Shown here one piece after another: positions 13,399-31,662 of a stretch of DNA of 34,170 nucleotides (position 1 is the first letter of the stretch; every line of letters begins with the position of its first letter). Below the pieces are notes generated by a model. It saw only the letters and a program-made list of their open reading frames with translations. It searched no databases and had not been told where the DNA came from. The DNA comes from an uncultured SAR86 cluster bacterium (lineage in GTDB: Bacteria > Pseudomonadota > Gammaproteobacteria > Magnimaribacterales > D2472), in the NCBI GenBank assembly GCA_902512655.1, contig CABXJR010000001.1, positions 115,896 to 150,065 on the forward strand, given 5' to 3'. The translations under genes and the position numbers were made by a program.

Positions 13399-13484
13399 TC
13401 ATTTTAAAAAATATTTCTTATTTATACTTATAACATACAAAATTTCTGACTTAAAGGTACAGATACATTTAAATAAAAATTAGG

Positions 13485-13513
13485 TTGCATATTGCTTATT
13501 ATATGTTTATGGT
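13485..13513 (+). promoter_or_regulatory. Candidate sigma70-type promoter of the 2-oxoacid oxidoreductase operon
   Basis: TTGCAT (13485-13490) and TATGGT (13508-13513) are separated by 17 nt. Both are imperfect hexamers. A start near 13520 would give a leader of about 65 nt that consists almost entirely of the two hairpins described below, which makes the placement attractive. It is weak on sequence alone. Confidence 0.35.
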
Positions 13514-13527
13514 AAAACTAGATATTC

Positions 13528-13560
13528 CTATAAGAAAAGGTTTTTTCCTGTACCTTATAG
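13528..13560 (+). promoter_or_regulatory. Upstream hairpin in the operon leader
   Basis: CTATAAG (13528-13534) pairs perfectly with CTTATAG (13554-13560). Inside, AGG and CCT can pair around a run of six T. The pyrimidine stretch TTTTTTCC (13541-13548) can alternatively pair, with several G-U pairs, to the Shine-Dalgarno GGAGGGGA further downstream. The two states would be mutually exclusive. This is inference from base pairing by eye. Confidence 0.45.
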
Positions 13561-13561
13561 C

Positions 13562-13584
13562 TAATTTGGAGGGGAGCCAAATTA
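13562..13584 (+). promoter_or_regulatory. Hairpin carrying an exceptionally strong Shine-Dalgarno in its loop
   Basis: TAATTTGG (13562-13569) and CCAAATTA (13577-13584) form a perfect 8-bp stem around the loop AGGGGAG. The 3' arm ends 1 nt before the ATG at 13586. This is the strongest purine-rich RBS in the window, in a genome where many genes show none. Exposure of the loop and opening of the arm next to the ATG could set translation of the whole coupled operon. Alternatively it is a DNA operator. Confidence 0.5.
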
Positions 13585-13585
13585 T

Positions 13586-15589
13586 ATGGATACAAAATAC
13601 TTGTTTAAACGACATAATACCTATTGGGTAAAAGTTGCTGTTCCCAAAGATCTTCGAAAAGAATTAGGTTTTGATCTAAGAACCTCATTGCATACTCATG
13701 ATTTATCTGAAGCTCAAAAACTTAGAGAAGCTGTGGTTGAGGGTTTTAAGTCTCAAATATTCGCAGCCAAAGAAAACCTTAAAAAATCCAATGGAAAGGG
13801 TTTCGTTAAAACTTTTATGCCGATAACTGATACCTCTGATCCTCAGTATTACCATAAAGTTGTTGATTGTCAGTATGCATGCCCTGCTCACACGCCTGTA
13901 CCAGAATATATCAGAAAAATTTCACAAAATAAGTATACAGAAGCATATATGATTAATTGGGAATCAAATGTATTTCCTGGAATCCTTGGTCGAACATGCG
14001 ACAGGCCCTGTGAACCTGCATGCAGAAGAACAAGAACCCATGAGAAACCTGTTGCTATATGTAGGCTCAAAAGAGTCGCAGCTGATTTTAAGGATGATGT
14101 TTCTGATTTATTACCTAAAGCTCCTTCAATCAGCAATGGAAAGAGAATTGCCCTCATTGGAGGTGGGCCGGCATCATTAACTGTTGCAAGAGATCTAATT
14201 GTCATGGGGTATGAATGTACATTATTTGAAAAAGATCCTCAGGCCGGAGGCTTAATGCGAACGAATATTCCATCATTCAGACTGCCAGAGGAAGTCTTGG
14301 ATGCTGAGGTTAATCAAATTCTAGATATGGGATTAAATACAAAATTTAATTCTGAAATTACTAGCCTTAAAAATTTTTTAAATGAAGATTTTGAAGCAGT
14401 CTTTGTGGGCACTGGAGCACCAAAAGGGAAAGATTTAAACATTGGAGGTCGCAAAGAAGCAAAAGCAAATATTCATATTGGTATAGATTTTTTAACAAGT
14501 ATAGCCTTTAAGCATATTGATTCTATTGGAAAAAAAGTAATTGTTTTGGGGGGTGGGAACACAGCAATGGATTGTTGTAGATCCTCTTTAAGATTAGGCG
14601 CTGAAGATGTAAAGGTTTTTGTCAGAAGCCCTTTCTCGCAAATGAAAGCATCTGAATGGGAAATTGAAGATGCTATGGAGGAAAATATTCCAATTTTTGA
14701 GAACCATGTTCCTAAAAAATTTATTCATGATGAAGGAAAGCTAACCGGAATGGAATTTCAAAAAGTTGAAGCCGTCTTTGACTCAAAAGGCAATAGATCG
14801 CTGGTCCCAACTGATGATGATCCTGTCATTATTGAATGTGATGATGTGCTAGTAGCTATTGGTCAAGATAATTCCTTTGAATGGATAGAAAGAGATATTG
14901 GCCTAGAATTTGGAGAGTGGGATATGCCGGTTGTAAACCCTACAACCTTTCAATCTACACATCCGAAGGTCTTTTTTGGTGGGGATGCTGCTTGGGGTCC
15001 AGAAAATATTATTTGGGCGGCAGCACATGGACACCAAGCTGCAATTTCTATTCATAAATTTTGTCAAAATGAAGATATTAATAAAAGGCCAGAGCCTGGC
15101 ACGAATCTTGTTAGTCAAAAGATGGGGTTGCATGAATGGTCTTATGATAATGACATCTCTCAAGCAAAAAGATTTCTGGTTCCAAAAGCAGATCAAGAAG
15201 TTGCACTAAAAAGCTTAAAAATAGAAGTTGAAAAAGGCTTCGATGAAAATCTGGCAATGGAAGAAGCTCAAAGATGTTTAAATTGCGATGTTCAAACTGT
15301 TTTTTCTGAAAGTTTATGCATCGAGTGCGATGCTTGTGTAGATATTTGCCCAACAGATTGTATTAATTTCATGTTTAATGGTCCTGAAGGTGAGGTGAGA
15401 CAAAATATTAGAATTCCTGCATTAAATATTGAACAAGATTTATTGGTTTCTAAGATCTTACCAACAAAAAGAACCATGTTTAAAGATGAAGATGTCTGCC
15501 TGCATTGTGGCTTATGCGCTGAAAGATGCCCTACAGGCGCTTGGGACATGCAAACCTTCTTGTATGAAGAGGCCAAGGTATACTCATGA
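13586..15589 (+). CDS. GltD-like FAD/NADPH Fe-S oxidoreductase subunit with N-terminal integrase-arm-like domain
   Basis: 667 residues. Residues 1-65 (YLFKRHNTYWVKVAVPKDLR, then SLHTHDLSEAQKLREAV) look like the N-terminal arm domain (DUF6538-like) of tyrosine integrases, not a redox domain. From about 78 the protein is a GltD/DPD-type flavoprotein: Fe-S Cys C95, C99, C138, C142 and C146, an FAD motif IGGGPAS (191-197), an NAD(P)H motif LGGGNTAMD (321-329) and FGGDAAWGP (464-472). The C-terminus holds two 4Fe-4S ferredoxin motifs (C578/581/584/588 and C638/641/644/648). It likely moves electrons between NADP(H) and the KorAB-like subunits encoded downstream with 4-nt overlap. An internal ATG (13817) lacks an RBS at the right distance, so the full-length start is preferred. 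Confidence 0.88.
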   Translation: MDTKYLFKRHNTYWVKVAVPKDLRKELGFDLRTSLHTHDLSEAQKLREAVVEGFKSQIFAAKENLKKSNGKGFVKTFMPITDTSDPQYYHKVVDCQYACPAHTPVPEYIRKISQNKYTEAYMINWESNVFPGILGRTCDRPCEPACRRTRTHEKPVAICRLKRVAADFKDDVSDLLPKAPSISNGKRIALIGGGPASLTVARDLIVMGYECTLFEKDPQAGGLMRTNIPSFRLPEEVLDAEVNQILDMGLNTKFNSEITSLKNFLNEDFEAVFVGTGAPKGKDLNIGGRKEAKANIHIGIDFLTSIAFKHIDSIGKKVIVLGGGNTAMDCCRSSLRLGAEDVKVFVRSPFSQMKASEWEIEDAMEENIPIFENHVPKKFIHDEGKLTGMEFQKVEAVFDSKGNRSLVPTDDDPVIIECDDVLVAIGQDNSFEWIERDIGLEFGEWDMPVVNPTTFQSTHPKVFFGGDAAWGPENIIWAAAHGHQAAISIHKFCQNEDINKRPEPGTNLVSQKMGLHEWSYDNDISQAKRFLVPKADQEVALKSLKIEVEKGFDENLAMEEAQRCLNCDVQTVFSESLCIECDACVDICPTDCINFMFNGPEGEVRQNIRIPALNIEQDLLVSKILPTKRTMFKDEDVCLHCGLCAERCPTGAWDMQTFLYEEAKVYS

Positions 15590-17418
15590 ATAAGATTGCC
15601 TCCATCAATGAGTTCGTAATTAAATTTGCCAATGTTAACGGTTCAGGTTCAGCAAGTGCGAACCAAATGTTTGCAAAAGGGATATTTAGATCAGGCATAC
15701 CTGTTAGTCCTAAAAATATTTTTCCATCCAACATACAAGGTCTACCAACATGGTTTGAAATAAGAGCAAGCGAAAAAGGATATTTAGGGCGAAAAGCTGG
15801 TATTGATTTTATGGTCGCAATGAATCCTCAATCGTATGCTCAAGATGTAGCTGAAATTAATCCAGGGGGATACCTTTTGTATGACTCATCTTGGAAAAGA
15901 GACTTCAAACGAGAAGATATTAATATCATTGAAGTTCCTTTAACTAGCTTATGCGTTGATGAATTTGATAATCCTAAGACAAGGTTGTTATTTAAAAACC
16001 TTGTCTATGTTGGCGCCCTTTCATATTTGATGGATATTAATCAAGATATTTTTATCAAGCTAATTGAAGAACAATTTAAAGGCAAAGAAAAGCTTATTGC
16101 TCCAAATATTCAAGCCTTTGAGATTGGTTTTAAATACGCAAAAAAACATCTTGTTGATGCTTGTAAAATTAAGGTCAATCAATCAAACCTAACAGATGGA
16201 ATGATCCTCACCAATGGAAATAATGCAGGGGGATTGGGCTGCGTATATGGTGGAGCAACTGTATGCACTTGGTACCCTATTACCCCATCAACATCCCTAG
16301 CAGAATCTTACAAAAAATATTGTGATCAGCTTAGAGTTGATGAAAAAACTGGTAAAAATAAATTTGCCTTTGTTCAAGCCGAAGACGAACTTGCTTCAAT
16401 TGGAATGGCTATTGGAGCAAATTGGAATGGGGCAAGAGCTTTTACAGCTACCAGCGGTCCAGGAATTTCATTGATGACAGAATTTATTGGTTTGGCTTAT
16501 TTTGCTGAAATACCAGTGGTAATTTTTAATATTCAAAGAGGCGGTCCTTCAACTGGTATGCCAACAAGAACTCAACAATCTGATATCCTCTCATGCGCAT
16601 ATGCCTCTCATGGAGATACGAAACACGTGATGCTAATACCCTCTGATCCAAAAGAATGCTTTGAGTTTTCAGCTGATTCATTTGACATATCAGACCGGCT
16701 TCAAACTCCTATATTTGTACTGTCTGACCTGGACATTGGAATGAATGATTGGACATGCCCAGAATTTAATTGGGATGATAATAGAAAATTTGATAGAGGA
16801 AAGGTTTTATCTAAGGATGATCTAGATAATATGGAATCATGGGGTAGGTATCTTGATGTTGATGGAGATGGAATTCCATTTAGAACGCTACCAGGCACTC
16901 ATCCTGAAAAAGGGGCTTATTTTACACGCGGAAGCTCGCATGATGAATATGCAAGATATATTGAGGACGGGGAAGTTAATGCAAGGAATCTTTCAAGAAT
17001 TCTTAAAAAATTTGAAGGTGCTTATAAATTTCTACCTAAACCAATATTCAAACAAGAAACCAATGCTAGTTCAAACGGATTGATATACTTCGGCAGTACT
17101 GAAGCAGCAATGCAAGAATCCTTAGATCAACTCTCCTCTTCAGGTCTTCCAATAGACGCAATGAGAATAAGATCTTTTCCTTTTGGTCCTCAAGTCTGGG
17201 ATTTTATTGATCAGCATGAAACTATTTTTCTTGTTGAGCAAAACAGAGATGCTCAAATGAAAACTCTTATTGTCTCAGAGGGAAGTGTTAATCCAGAAAA
17301 ATTTATTTCAATATTATGTTTTGATGGATCGCCGATTACTGCTAACTTTATCTCAGAATCAATTGCTGATGTTCTATCAAATAAAAATACTGCGAAATCT
17401 GCTAAGGAAATAAAATGA
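15586..17418 (+). CDS. korA: 2-oxoacid:acceptor oxidoreductase, fused gamma-alpha subunit (KorA-like)
   Basis: 610 residues. The N-terminal gamma domain (about 8-190, starting NVNGSGSASANQMFAKG) is fused to the alpha (pyrimidine-binding) domain, which has GNNAGGLGC, YPITPSTSLAE (230-240), QAEDELASIGMA and QRGGPSTGMPTRTQQSD (317-333). This gamma-alpha fusion with a separate beta is the KorA architecture of aerobic 2-oxoglutarate:ferredoxin oxidoreductases such as those of mycobacteria. The substrate is most likely 2-oxoglutarate, with pyruvate or branched 2-oxoacids as alternatives. ATG overlaps the preceding stop as ATGA, and its own stop overlaps the next ATG the same way. Confidence 0.9.
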   Translation: MNKIASINEFVIKFANVNGSGSASANQMFAKGIFRSGIPVSPKNIFPSNIQGLPTWFEIRASEKGYLGRKAGIDFMVAMNPQSYAQDVAEINPGGYLLYDSSWKRDFKREDINIIEVPLTSLCVDEFDNPKTRLLFKNLVYVGALSYLMDINQDIFIKLIEEQFKGKEKLIAPNIQAFEIGFKYAKKHLVDACKIKVNQSNLTDGMILTNGNNAGGLGCVYGGATVCTWYPITPSTSLAESYKKYCDQLRVDEKTGKNKFAFVQAEDELASIGMAIGANWNGARAFTATSGPGISLMTEFIGLAYFAEIPVVIFNIQRGGPSTGMPTRTQQSDILSCAYASHGDTKHVMLIPSDPKECFEFSADSFDISDRLQTPIFVLSDLDIGMNDWTCPEFNWDDNRKFDRGKVLSKDDLDNMESWGRYLDVDGDGIPFRTLPGTHPEKGAYFTRGSSHDEYARYIEDGEVNARNLSRILKKFEGAYKFLPKPIFKQETNASSNGLIYFGSTEAAMQESLDQLSSSGLPIDAMRIRSFPFGPQVWDFIDQHETIFLVEQNRDAQMKTLIVSEGSVNPEKFISILCFDGSPITANFISESIADVLSNKNTAKSAKEIK

Positions 17419-18470
17419 CCTACATTGTTAAGCCCGCTAATCATCACCCAAACCTTGAAAAGAATAAACTTGGATTAACAAGACGAGATTATGAAGGAAC
17501 GATTTCAACTTTATGCGCTGGATGTGGCCACGATTCTATTAGTGCAGCAGTAATAGAGGCTTGTTATGATTTAAGCCTTTCTTCAGATCAAATTGCAAAA
17601 CTCTCAGGAATTGGCTGCTCATCTAAATCTCCCTCATATTTTCTAAATCAAGCTCATGGTTTCAATTCCGTCCATGGAAGAATGCCATCAGTTGCAACTG
17701 GAGCTAATCTTGGGAATAAAGACTTGCTTTATTTAGGTGTCTCAGGAGATGGTGATACTGCATCAATTGGAATTGGACAATTTATGCATGCAGCTAGAAG
17801 GCAGCTTAATATTACTTACATTGTTGAAAATAATGGAACATATGGCCTAACAAAAGGTCAGTTTTCAGCCACGAACGACCAAGGTTCTAAAAGTAAATAT
17901 GGAGAAATAAATACCTTATCCCCAATTGATCTGCCTACTATGGCAATTCAACTTGGTGCAGGATTCGTCGGAAGAAGTTTCTCTGGAGATAAAGATCAAC
18001 TAGTTCCCCTATTAAAAGCAGCAATGAAATTTAAAGGATTTTCGCTTATCGATATTATCTCTCCATGTGTAACTTTTAATAATCATGTTGGTTCTACAAA
18101 GAGCTATGACCACATTAGAGAGCACAACGAATCTATATCTAGCCTTGATTTCGTTCCAATTGGACAAGAAATTAAAACAAACTATGCTGCAGGGACTAAA
18201 GTTGATGTACCGTTGCATGACGGCGAGATGCTGACTCTTGAAAAACTCTCCAAACAATACAACCCACTCGACAAAGGTCAAGCGATTCAAAGCTTAAATG
18301 AAGCTGAAAAAAACGGAAAAGTACTCACAGGTTTGCTCTATATCAATCCTGATGTAAAAGACCATATTGAAATTCTAAATATATCAGATACGCCTCTAAA
18401 TCAGTTAACTGAAAATGAATTATGTCCAGGCTCAAAAAAGCTTAACAAAATTAATGCTAGCTTAAATTAA
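17415..18470 (+). CDS. korB: 2-oxoacid:acceptor oxidoreductase, TPP-binding beta subunit (KorB-like)
   Basis: 351 residues. The TPP site GDGDTASIGIGQ to NN (111-140) is complete. Four cysteines expected to hold the 4Fe-4S cluster are present: CAGCGH (C34, C37), GIGCSS (C68) and SPCVTFN (C218). It decarboxylates the 2-oxoacid on TPP and passes electrons through its cluster to the ferredoxin domains of the first gene product. AAGGAA lies before its ATG, which overlaps the korA stop. It is the last gene of the trio; the next gene is 44 nt away and may or may not share the transcript. Confidence 0.92.
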   Translation: MTYIVKPANHHPNLEKNKLGLTRRDYEGTISTLCAGCGHDSISAAVIEACYDLSLSSDQIAKLSGIGCSSKSPSYFLNQAHGFNSVHGRMPSVATGANLGNKDLLYLGVSGDGDTASIGIGQFMHAARRQLNITYIVENNGTYGLTKGQFSATNDQGSKSKYGEINTLSPIDLPTMAIQLGAGFVGRSFSGDKDQLVPLLKAAMKFKGFSLIDIISPCVTFNNHVGSTKSYDHIREHNESISSLDFVPIGQEIKTNYAAGTKVDVPLHDGEMLTLEKLSKQYNPLDKGQAIQSLNEAEKNGKVLTGLLYINPDVKDHIEILNISDTPLNQLTENELCPGSKKLNKINASLN

Positions 18471-18514: not shown

Positions 18515-19168
18515 ATGAAATTTTTTTTAATCAAATCTGTACCAATAACAAAATGGAGCTCAGACAAACCATTAAACTTTTCACCCAAGCCATTAACTAT
18601 ATTTATTCTTTGTATTGGTTTAGTCTTATTTGGATTAGGCGAGTCATTGCTTATTACTGCTGCTATTGGGATGAGCCCATGGACAGTTTTGGCTGAAGGT
18701 TTATCAGTAACAACAGGATTAAGTATAGGCAAACTAACCTTTATCATTAGCCTTGGTGTTTTATTATTATGGATACCCCTAAAACAACATGCGGGAATCG
18801 GAACAGTGCTCAATGTGATTATAATTGCTGCAGTAATTGAATGGTCACTACCTTATCTACCTCATCCTGACAATTTTTTAGCCAAAACAATTCAAGCAAT
18901 CATTGGCACTTTAATAGTTGGTCTCGCAAGCGGCATTTATTTAATAGCAAATCTTGGTCCAGGCCCCAGGGATGGACTAATGACAGGCTGTCAGAGACTA
19001 ACAGATCTCCCAATCGCTTGGGTAAGAGTTTTTTTGGAAGTATTAGTCATAAGCATTGGGTGGAGTTTTGGAGGCACAATTGGTATTGGAACAGCAATCT
19101 TCGCATTTGGAGTTGGTCCAGCTGTATCTTTGGGTCTTTACTCTATTGCATCAATATCCAAAAAATAA
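18515..19168 (+). CDS. YczE-family integral membrane protein
   Basis: 217 residues with about five membrane helices and the YczE-like segments GLGESLLITAAIGMSPWTVL and NLGPGPRDGLMTG. The N-terminal 25 residues are hydrophilic and cytoplasmic. In Bacillus the family is linked to antibiotic synthesis and the mechanism is unknown; in marine bacteria the role is not known. It sits 44 nt after korB with no terminator between, so read-through from the KOR operon is possible. A bidirectional terminator follows it. Confidence 0.82.
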   Translation: MKFFLIKSVPITKWSSDKPLNFSPKPLTIFILCIGLVLFGLGESLLITAAIGMSPWTVLAEGLSVTTGLSIGKLTFIISLGVLLLWIPLKQHAGIGTVLNVIIIAAVIEWSLPYLPHPDNFLAKTIQAIIGTLIVGLASGIYLIANLGPGPRDGLMTGCQRLTDLPIAWVRVFLEVLVISIGWSFGGTIGIGTAIFAFGVGPAVSLGLYSIASISKK

Positions 19169-29046: not shown

Positions 29047-31662
29047 CTAGTTATTAAAAAATCTCTTGAATCTAATACCTACAGTAGTTGGTCTGATTAT
29101 ACTAACACGCTGCCTGTCAAAGACAAAAGTGTTACTAATTTCAGCTCTCTCATCAGTAATGTTATCGATATAAGCCTCAAATATCGAATCATCACTGCTG
29201 ATTCCGAAACGCACATTCATAAAGCTATAGCTATCTTGAATTGCTCTATTTGGCGCCATAATATCGGAGTAACTGTCATCTGAGAAAGTAAATTGAGCCT
29301 GAAAATGTGCTGTATTTCCGGAACCTATACCCCACTCTTTTCTTGCGCTTAAATTACCCTGTATTCCAGGAGCAAATGCCAATTCTGATCCCTCAACAAC
29401 ATCATTGGTAGGAACTAAGCTTTTAGTAATTTCTGAGTCCAATACGGAGAAAGCACCAGACAACACCCAACCATCAAGGTCAGGGGGAACATAAGTAAAG
29501 TCTCCTTCAAGACCGGTAATTTCAGCATCTGCTGCATTATCAGAGAAGAATAAGTTAACTATGCTAGGGTCAAAAATAGTAGACTGAAGCCCGCTAATAT
29601 CAACTATAAAGGCGCTACCATTGAATCTCAGTCGACCATCATCAAGAAGAGCCTTCCATCCAAATTCAAAGTTTGTAACTTCATCGGAATCAATTGAAGG
29701 TTTCACTGAATAAGTACCATCAGCATTTGTTCGACCAGCCGGCCTGTTTAACAAACCCGGTCTAAAACCTTCTGACCAAGTCAGATAATACATGATATCT
29801 TCAGATGGATTCCATGAATAAGTTATCTTCCCAATTGTTCCATCACTTTTAGCCTTATCAGGGTATCCATTTGGATTTCCTGGTGCATATTGAGCCGATA
29901 GATTAGATCCAAATTGCTGCGTATCAGGAGCACCGAATCCATTATAGAAAGAAGAGTTAGCACTTCCCTCAAAGTCAACTTCAATGTCATACCATCTAAC
30001 ACCAACAGTAAGCTCGGATGTTTCTGAGGTATCTATACTAAGCTCACCAAATACACCTTGTTGCTTATCAGTTCTCTTAATATCATTAAAGAAAATAACT
30101 GGTTCACTATATGGACCTGCTGAGTACCAACCCGGACTTGCATTATTAATTGCTCCAGTGACAGATGTGTCTGTTAAAGCATAGTTTGCAGCATAAGTAA
30201 TATCATTATCCACAGAACTTGGATATGTGAAGAGGTTTAATTCTCTTAGCTCTAGGTCACTAAAAAACACTCCAGCTGTAAGACTTGTAGTGTCGTTTAT
30301 TGGTGCATTAACCCTGAATTCATGAGTTGTAACCTCTGTTTTAGTTGTTGAATCAACCAATAAGTTTGGTGCCCCACATGTTCCAGTAGGAACATTACCA
30401 GGTGCTAACTTAGTATAAGTAACATAATAGTCACAGATATAGTAAGGCAGATACTGACCAACAAATAAATAGTCAGTGTAATCAACGTCTTGATCAGTTG
30501 TTCTGTCTGTATAAGCTCCAGTATAAAGAACCTCAAGATCTCCAATTGAACCCTTTAGAGTAAAACTCATGTTATCGAACTCATCTTCAATAGAATCATT
30601 TGTGTATCTTTGAACTTCTAAATCTTCCAATGTAGGATCAACAAAAAATACACCGTCAGCATCAATTGTTTGTGTTGCAAAGGTTGCTAGAGCATCCCAA
30701 TTGTCATTAATCTCATGAGCGATACTTGCTCTGAAACCTTCATAATCAACTGGGTTAGCATCTTCTTGAACAATTGCATCCGCATTCAAAAGTGTTGCGC
30801 CTGAAAGATCTGCTCCAGCTTGGATGCCGCCCCTAGACGATGATACTGCAAGACCGTTTTGTCTTACAGTTCCAGCTGCTCTAAAACGAGCAGATTGGCT
30901 TGCATCAAGTTTTCCAGCAACTTGATCAATGTAACCACCTCTTCGATCGCTATAAGCTACAAATCTTAAGGCTGTTGAATCACCCATGGGAATATTAGAA
31001 ACATATTCAAACTTGTTGCCAGCGCCTCCATCCGGCATAGCTCTAGCTTCGATTTCAAGACTGCTTGAAGATTCTCCTATTACGGGTTTGTTAGTAATCA
31101 TGCGAACAACACCAGCTTGCGAGCTAGCACCAAATAAAGTTCCTTGGGGTCCAGATAGAACCTCTACACGTCCAACGTCAGCCGCATAAACATCTAAATT
31201 TCTTCCAGGCTGACCTAATGGCTGCTCATCAAGATAAAATGCAACGTTAGGAGTTAAACCAGCAACACCAGCAGTAGTTAGGTTTGGGGTAGTAGAAGCA
31301 AGACCTCTTATATATATAGTGCTTTGGCCAGGCCCTGATCCACCAGCTGTAACGCCAGGTAATTGCATTAAATAATCTTCGAAGACATTTATTCCTTTTT
31401 GCTCAAGGGACTCTTCAGTAAGAGCATTAACGGAAAGAGGGACATCTTGAAGTCCCTCAGCCTTTTTCCTGGAGGTAACAACAACCTCTTCAATGGTTGC
31501 TTGAGATTGAGCTCCTAAATGTCCGCTGTATGCAGATGCATTTATAATAGCAAAAGCGGATATTGCAGAAATAACCTTGTTTCCAAAATTATCAAAAGCC
31601 TTGTGTCTAAAGGTCTTCTGAATATTCTTAATTACGTTACTTTTCTTAATGGTATTTATCAT
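29047..31662 (-). CDS. TonB-dependent outer-membrane receptor
   Basis: 871 residues. The N-terminus is long and basic before the hydrophobic signal core (VISAISAFAIINASAYSG), giving an extended signal peptide of about 50 residues. Then come the TonB box ATIEEVVVTSRK (56-67), the plug (LPGVTAGGSGPGQSTIYIRGL and VEVLSGPQGTLFGASSQAGVVR) and a barrel. The C-terminus is RFKRFFNN, not the usual final Phe, so the barrel end is slightly atypical. A strong AGGGGGGAA precedes the ATG. The plug style is that of the iron complex or broad-substrate receptors; the ligand is unknown. It has its own terminator. Confidence 0.95.
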   Translation of the reverse strand: MINTIKKSNVIKNIQKTFRHKAFDNFGNKVISAISAFAIINASAYSGHLGAQSQATIEEVVVTSRKKAEGLQDVPLSVNALTEESLEQKGINVFEDYLMQLPGVTAGGSGPGQSTIYIRGLASTTPNLTTAGVAGLTPNVAFYLDEQPLGQPGRNLDVYAADVGRVEVLSGPQGTLFGASSQAGVVRMITNKPVIGESSSSLEIEARAMPDGGAGNKFEYVSNIPMGDSTALRFVAYSDRRGGYIDQVAGKLDASQSARFRAAGTVRQNGLAVSSSRGGIQAGADLSGATLLNADAIVQEDANPVDYEGFRASIAHEINDNWDALATFATQTIDADGVFFVDPTLEDLEVQRYTNDSIEDEFDNMSFTLKGSIGDLEVLYTGAYTDRTTDQDVDYTDYLFVGQYLPYYICDYYVTYTKLAPGNVPTGTCGAPNLLVDSTTKTEVTTHEFRVNAPINDTTSLTAGVFFSDLELRELNLFTYPSSVDNDITYAANYALTDTSVTGAINNASPGWYSAGPYSEPVIFFNDIKRTDKQQGVFGELSIDTSETSELTVGVRWYDIEVDFEGSANSSFYNGFGAPDTQQFGSNLSAQYAPGNPNGYPDKAKSDGTIGKITYSWNPSEDIMYYLTWSEGFRPGLLNRPAGRTNADGTYSVKPSIDSDEVTNFEFGWKALLDDGRLRFNGSAFIVDISGLQSTIFDPSIVNLFFSDNAADAEITGLEGDFTYVPPDLDGWVLSGAFSVLDSEITKSLVPTNDVVEGSELAFAPGIQGNLSARKEWGIGSGNTAHFQAQFTFSDDSYSDIMAPNRAIQDSYSFMNVRFGISSDDSIFEAYIDNITDERAEISNTFVFDRQRVSIIRPTTVGIRFKRFFNN

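Follow-up and report, generated by a model that had tools for sequence, protein, structure and literature searches.

The leader of a 2-oxoacid:acceptor oxidoreductase operon in SAR86 probably serves as operator and ribosome-binding region for an operon under autogenous control, in which the first enzyme, through an N-terminal DUF6538 domain (hereafter the head), would bind boxes in front of its own gene and most likely repress it. We reached this reading from a window of 34,170 nucleotides, the whole stretch of DNA analysed, which comes from a SAR86 draft genome (0.95 Mb, 72% complete). The initial annotation of this leader had described two hairpins with the Shine-Dalgarno in a loop, and had proposed that two mutually exclusive RNA structures switch translation of the whole coupled operon under metabolite, temperature or protein control. 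The features of the leader and the operon are as follows.

13454-13461 (+), upstream box AAGGTACA, at about -64 from the predicted transcript start, located by sequence.
13485-13513 (+), probable promoter: TTGCAT (13485-13490), a 17-base spacer and TATGGT (13508-13513), in columns conserved in 12 genomes (TTGCAT-17-TATNGT).
13528-13560 (+), hairpin 1, 7 bp: CTATAAG (13528-13534) with CTTATAG (13554-13560), in the RNAfold minimum-free-energy (MFE) structure.
13549-13556 (+), 5′-UTR box TGTACCTT, the reverse complement of AAGGTACA, overlapping the 3′ arm of hairpin 1; its TGTACC is conserved in all aligned SAR86 leaders.
13562-13584 (+), hairpin 2, 8 bp: TAATTTGG (13562-13569) with CCAAATTA (13577-13584) and the loop AGGGGAG (13570-13576), in the RNAfold MFE structure.
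13586-13771 (+), DUF6538 head, about residues 1-62 of the first gene (PF20172, 41.4 bits against a cut-off of 27).
13586-15589 (+), first gene: the DUF6538 head fused to a GltD-like FAD/NAD(P) oxidoreductase with Fer4 clusters (Pfam, NCBIfam).
15586-17418 (+), korA-like gene for the 2-oxoacid:acceptor oxidoreductase alpha subunit, a gamma-alpha fusion (TIGR03710 above cut-off), overlapping the first gene by 4 bases.
17415-18470 (+), korB-like gene for the TPP-binding beta subunit (TPP_enzyme_C; PorB/KorB-type NCBIfam models below their cut-offs), overlapping korA by 4 bases.

With a fused gamma-alpha subunit and a TPP-binding beta subunit (TIGR03710, TPP_enzyme_C), the operon is of the KorAB kind, and it has the same gene content and order as KorAB operons with a GltD-like partner, from which it differs by the DUF6538 head on the first gene. 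Directly 3′ of it, at 18515-19168 (+), lies a gene for a YczE-family membrane protein (NF052291, above cut-off). The first-gene product matched the Pfam domains DUF6538, Fer4_20 and Pyr_redox_2; PF00589 (Phage_integrase), the sign of a tyrosine recombinase, was not found in it. PF20172 matched all 40 heads of our alignment A1. Homologues of the first gene in Bacteroidetes and alphaproteobacteria (including OCS116) lack the head, and in the order searched the head occurs in 72 of 203 genomes, one per genome.

The fold of the head was modelled confidently (pLDDT 86.9) as three strands and a long helix, which we take to match the overall arrangement in integrase arm-binding and AP2-like domains. 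The full-length AlphaFold model was poor (mean pLDDT 57.7) except for the head and parts of the flavin domain. Fold searches with the head against the PDB and viral models gave no significant match, any solved DNA-binding domain included, and its weak viral matches included integrases and HNH endonucleases. A PDB sequence search with the head profile returned nothing, and scans of viral contigs with the head and two integrases confirmed no relatives.

The leader is strongly conserved within one SAR86 genus, beyond chance. Across 12 genomes of this genus, positions 13541-13600 kept a mean pairwise identity of 0.92-0.97 per 15-base window, compared with 0.63 at third positions of invariant-amino-acid codons, where 19 of 148 positions were invariant. 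Elsewhere in the 107 genomes of the family we found short partial matches only, and the hairpin leader is confined to the genus of the window. Because the promoter-like pair at 13485-13490 and 13508-13513 is conserved, the transcript is predicted to start near 13520, 5′ of both stems; a consensus promoter scan of the window did not list this TTGCAT-17-TATGGT pair.

The stems, the loop and the Shine-Dalgarno were described correctly at the outset: sequence and coordinates agree, and RNAfold gave both hairpins as the MFE structure of the leader (-14.8 kcal/mol). The Shine-Dalgarno GGAGG occupies 13568-13572 in hairpin 2, the ATG of the first gene (13586) stands one T past stem 2, and TTTTTTCC lies at 13541-13548. 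The view of a regulatory leader before a coupled operon also held, since the leader is conserved, the downstream genes overlap and the Shine-Dalgarno sits in a hairpin loop. That such a ribosome-binding site is exceptional in the window was slightly overstated: its duplex (-9.8 kcal/mol) is the second strongest among the 25 gene starts checked, behind that of the gene at 29047-31662 (-), whose AGGGGGG reaches -10.8 kcal/mol. The window as a whole contains 13 stems of at least 8 bp with loops of at most 8, compared with 3-10 in ten shuffles.

A strong Shine-Dalgarno held in a hairpin loop speaks for an RNA switch, in which translation would respond to a metabolite, temperature or a protein through mutually exclusive structures, either hairpins 1 and 2 or a TTTCC:GGGGA pairing. 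Both stems are indeed conserved across the 12 genomes. However, the leader is no more stable than its composition predicts (z -0.40; 59 of 200 dinucleotide shuffles equally stable), and more distant relatives lose stem 1 yet keep the box in it, which persists in every aligned SAR86 leader of our first set. The covariation set comprised 11 distinct leaders and 18 pairs from the same genus. Stem 2 showed one compensatory pair (G-C to A-U) and a broken outer pair, both in a single divergent genome, in which stem 1 had two outer pairs broken and no compensation. Since the leaders vary so little, the missing covariation is weak evidence in either direction, but it lends no support to a two-state switch. 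We rejected the TTTCC pairing with the Shine-Dalgarno, which was about 2 kcal/mol worse than the MFE structure and had no independent support. In addition, the leader matched no RNA family in Rfam 15 at gathering thresholds. We therefore consider an RNA switch unlikely and not the best explanation of the leader; the two mutually exclusive structures were not borne out, while control by a protein, also among the options first named, was retained.

Hairpin 2 with its Shine-Dalgarno is a separate, clade-specific element that probably sets translation efficiency. Its perfect 8-bp symmetry would also suit a DNA palindrome, TAATTTGG-N7-CCAAATTA, bound by a second regulator, and the symmetric substitution in the divergent genome fits a dimer site and an RNA stem equally well. 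Against this, the element is placed exactly around the invariant Shine-Dalgarno, one base from the start codon, and the family yielded no other copy of the leader, which leaves a second regulator rather unlikely.

The preferred reading, an operator for the headed enzyme, depends on the boxes. Upstream of headed SAR86 genes we counted 201 boxes in 14.2 kb (14.2 per kb), covering 71 of 71 distinct promoters, whereas the background, measured over 1.2 Mb from three genomes, was 0.13-0.17 per kb. The headless control (56 homologues) gave 3 boxes in 18.9 kb, which equals the background; it excludes G107, a genome of family f2 whose apparently headless GltD-like gene begins at a contig end. The loci are related, so these counts overstate independence, and the motif was discovered in these same regions, which gives the first count less weight than the background, the headless control and the plasmid integrases described below. 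More independent lines are a hexamer test on thinned sequences, the repeat period in integrases and the diversity of the bodies. After close relatives were thinned, GGTACA ranked first in enrichment among all hexamers in four groups independently and second in the genus of the window, and the aligned boxes read AAGGTACA in all groups, the GC-rich one included. Head and box together were found with four bodies: the GltD-like flavoprotein, IscS, KorA and an NfnA-like subunit.

Across SAR86 upstream regions the box is read in either direction and frequently forms the palindrome GGTACATGTACC, which suggests that the target is double-stranded DNA. The exact GGTACATGTACC was found in 1 of 107 genomes of the window's family, because the palindrome belongs to family f3. 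In this family, 18 of 19 distinct headed genes with R-Y also contain AAGGTACA in their coding sequence (codons 8-11), through unusual AGG-TAC codons; codon use would lead one to expect the box at codons 8-10 in 6%. In the genus of the window, the upstream copy (13454) is retained in 4 of 12 members, and the other 8 keep one box only. Within the 430 kb of the source genome that were sampled, the boxes at 13454 and 13549 form the single GGTACA pair within 200 bp, which suggests that they serve self-regulation and not a large regulon.

These same comparisons bear on whether head and promoter merely moved together as a cassette, their co-occurrence reflecting descent without a functional link. The transfer of a gene fusion could bring its upstream DNA along. 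Yet the flanks and the number, position and orientation of the boxes have diverged while the box was kept from a GC content of 35% to 67%, and the extra box inside the f3 coding sequence was kept through unusual codon choice. We regard passive co-transfer as very unlikely.

Headed enzymes also occur outside SAR86. A class-wide search returned other DUF6538 proteins, most of which Pfam identifies as tyrosine recombinases, with Phage_integrase (PF00589) present in many; in one the head is fused to KorA, and two AAGGTACAGG boxes precede the gene. The order of this fusion contains further genomes with heads at least 53% identical; there the head sits either on KorA or on an NfnA-like FAD/NAD subunit whose gene is followed by those for GltD-like, KorA and KorB proteins. 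The box was present in 36 of 36 non-SAR86 gammaproteobacterial headed loci with usable upstream sequence, in many near -62 to -65. Outside SAR86 we counted 62 boxes in 9.6 kb of upstream DNA versus 27 in the remaining 80.6 kb of the same loci. In the operons whose gene order was read, the head was on the first gene whichever the enzyme.

In DUF6538 integrases the box takes the form of tandem repeats with a 13-bp period adjoining int. Among 33 upstream regions, a set that is mostly integrase-type with some members that are fragments or lack a Phage_integrase match, the 13-bp period gave 6 pairs when an exact match was required and 17 when up to two mismatches were allowed, whereas the other spacings from 7 to 30 gave none and no more than 4, respectively; some of the integrases had no recognisable box. 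The period was first noticed in chromosomal cases and then recurred in plasmid loci gathered afterwards. Read by eye, several plasmid cases have an apparent tRNA 3′ end on one side and the start codon of int on the other, which is where recombination sites usually lie. Since the plasmid tandem boxes sit there, the simplest reading would make DUF6538 an arm-type DNA-binding domain of recombinases. In SAR86 itself, a 156-aa ORF (L325/L381, genome G060, genus g8 of family f1) that matches DUF6538 below threshold and is preceded by two GGTACA boxes is perhaps a remnant integrase.

Binding of the box by the head is something we infer, and the boxes might instead be bound by an unlinked transcription factor while the head does something else, for example making a protein-protein contact. 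However, the boxes accompany the head on four unrelated bodies and on integrases, headless homologues remain at background, and no second clustered site was found in the sampled 430 kb, which makes an unlinked factor improbable.

In the mechanism that we propose instead, the head of the first protein would bind the AAGGTACA boxes that lie in the promoter and 5′ UTR of its own gene, and the bound enzyme would regulate, most likely repress, its own operon. The signal would come from the enzyme part, likely its own cofactor, its substrate or its iron-sulfur state. Initiation or elongation would be blocked at the 5′-UTR box (about +30), either by this box on its own or through a loop to the one near -64. 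Physical binding by the head, repression as the sign and sensing by the enzyme are all things we infer.

The nearest parallel is trifunctional proline utilization A (PutA), a flavoenzyme with an N-terminal DNA-binding domain that is the autogenous repressor of its own operon (PMC5293562). The window enzyme is similar in that an N-terminal head, with putative DNA binding, is fused to a flavoenzyme whose own promoter carries conserved boxes. PutA, however, uses a ribbon-helix-helix head on one enzyme, whereas a DUF6538 head is found here on four enzymes with another operator; the domains of the window protein (DUF6538, Fer4_20, Pyr_redox_2) include no ribbon-helix-helix head on a proline dehydrogenase. 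On the recombinase side, IntS of KplE1 represses its own gene, with recombination sites overlapping the int promoter (PMC2951348), and DUF6538 integrases have their tandem boxes at the corresponding place. The headed enzymes differ from IntS in having metabolic bodies and no Phage_integrase among their Pfam matches.

A third comparison is with IscR, which is itself an Fe-S protein and whose gene is the first of its own operon (PMC11475020). In family f3 the iron-sulfur assembly genes are controlled from the same promoter region: the headed gene is divergent from iscR-iscS-iscU-iscA with the boxes in between. In such f3 intergenic regions, for example at L055 some 165 bp 5′ of the headed gene, a near-palindrome like ATTCCTGACTAAATTTGTCAAGAAT recurs close to iscR and is similar to a type 1 site of IscR. 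By the models used, the head has no relation to Rrf2. In family f2 the isc promoter carries AAGGTACA boxes, and an Rrf2/IscR match was found in 0 of 40 genomes, 13 of them at least 90% complete, compared with 83 of 107 in family f1; as many genomes are incomplete, single absences mean little and the absence of IscR from f2 rests on the group.

The bodies in f2 are the GltD-like flavoprotein or the cysteine desulfurase IscS. Where iscS directly faces the headed gene, the distance from a box to the assigned start of iscS is 20-52 bp and in most cases about 40 bp. Other f2 genomes, in which no full-length GltD-like gene was found, carry the head on IscS itself, again with a box at roughly this distance. 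In f2 genomes such as L296, L297 and L301, fdx and iscA form one fused ORF adjoining iscU. Because f2 lacks an IscR match and has boxes before iscS, the headed enzyme may have replaced IscR in this family; the order of events would have been loss of IscR, a box before iscS and then transfer of the head onto IscS. More broadly, and tentatively, DUF6538 with its AAGGTACA operator could be a portable, recombinase-derived autoregulation module, placed on the first gene of iron-sulfur or ferredoxin-linked operons and reporting the state of the enzyme, which in f2 replaced IscR and ended in a self-regulating IscS.

We found no mention of DUF6538 in the literature searched, and this Pfam domain of unknown function now gains a testable function and a target sequence. 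Our results suggest that a domain of mobile elements was recruited repeatedly for the regulation of core metabolism, onto no fewer than four enzymes. Among bacterial groups of the surface ocean, SAR86 is one of the most abundant (PMC11582366). The apparent loss of IscR in one SAR86 family raises the question of how iron-sulfur assembly is controlled there, for which the headed GltD-like protein or the headed IscS would be the candidate regulators.
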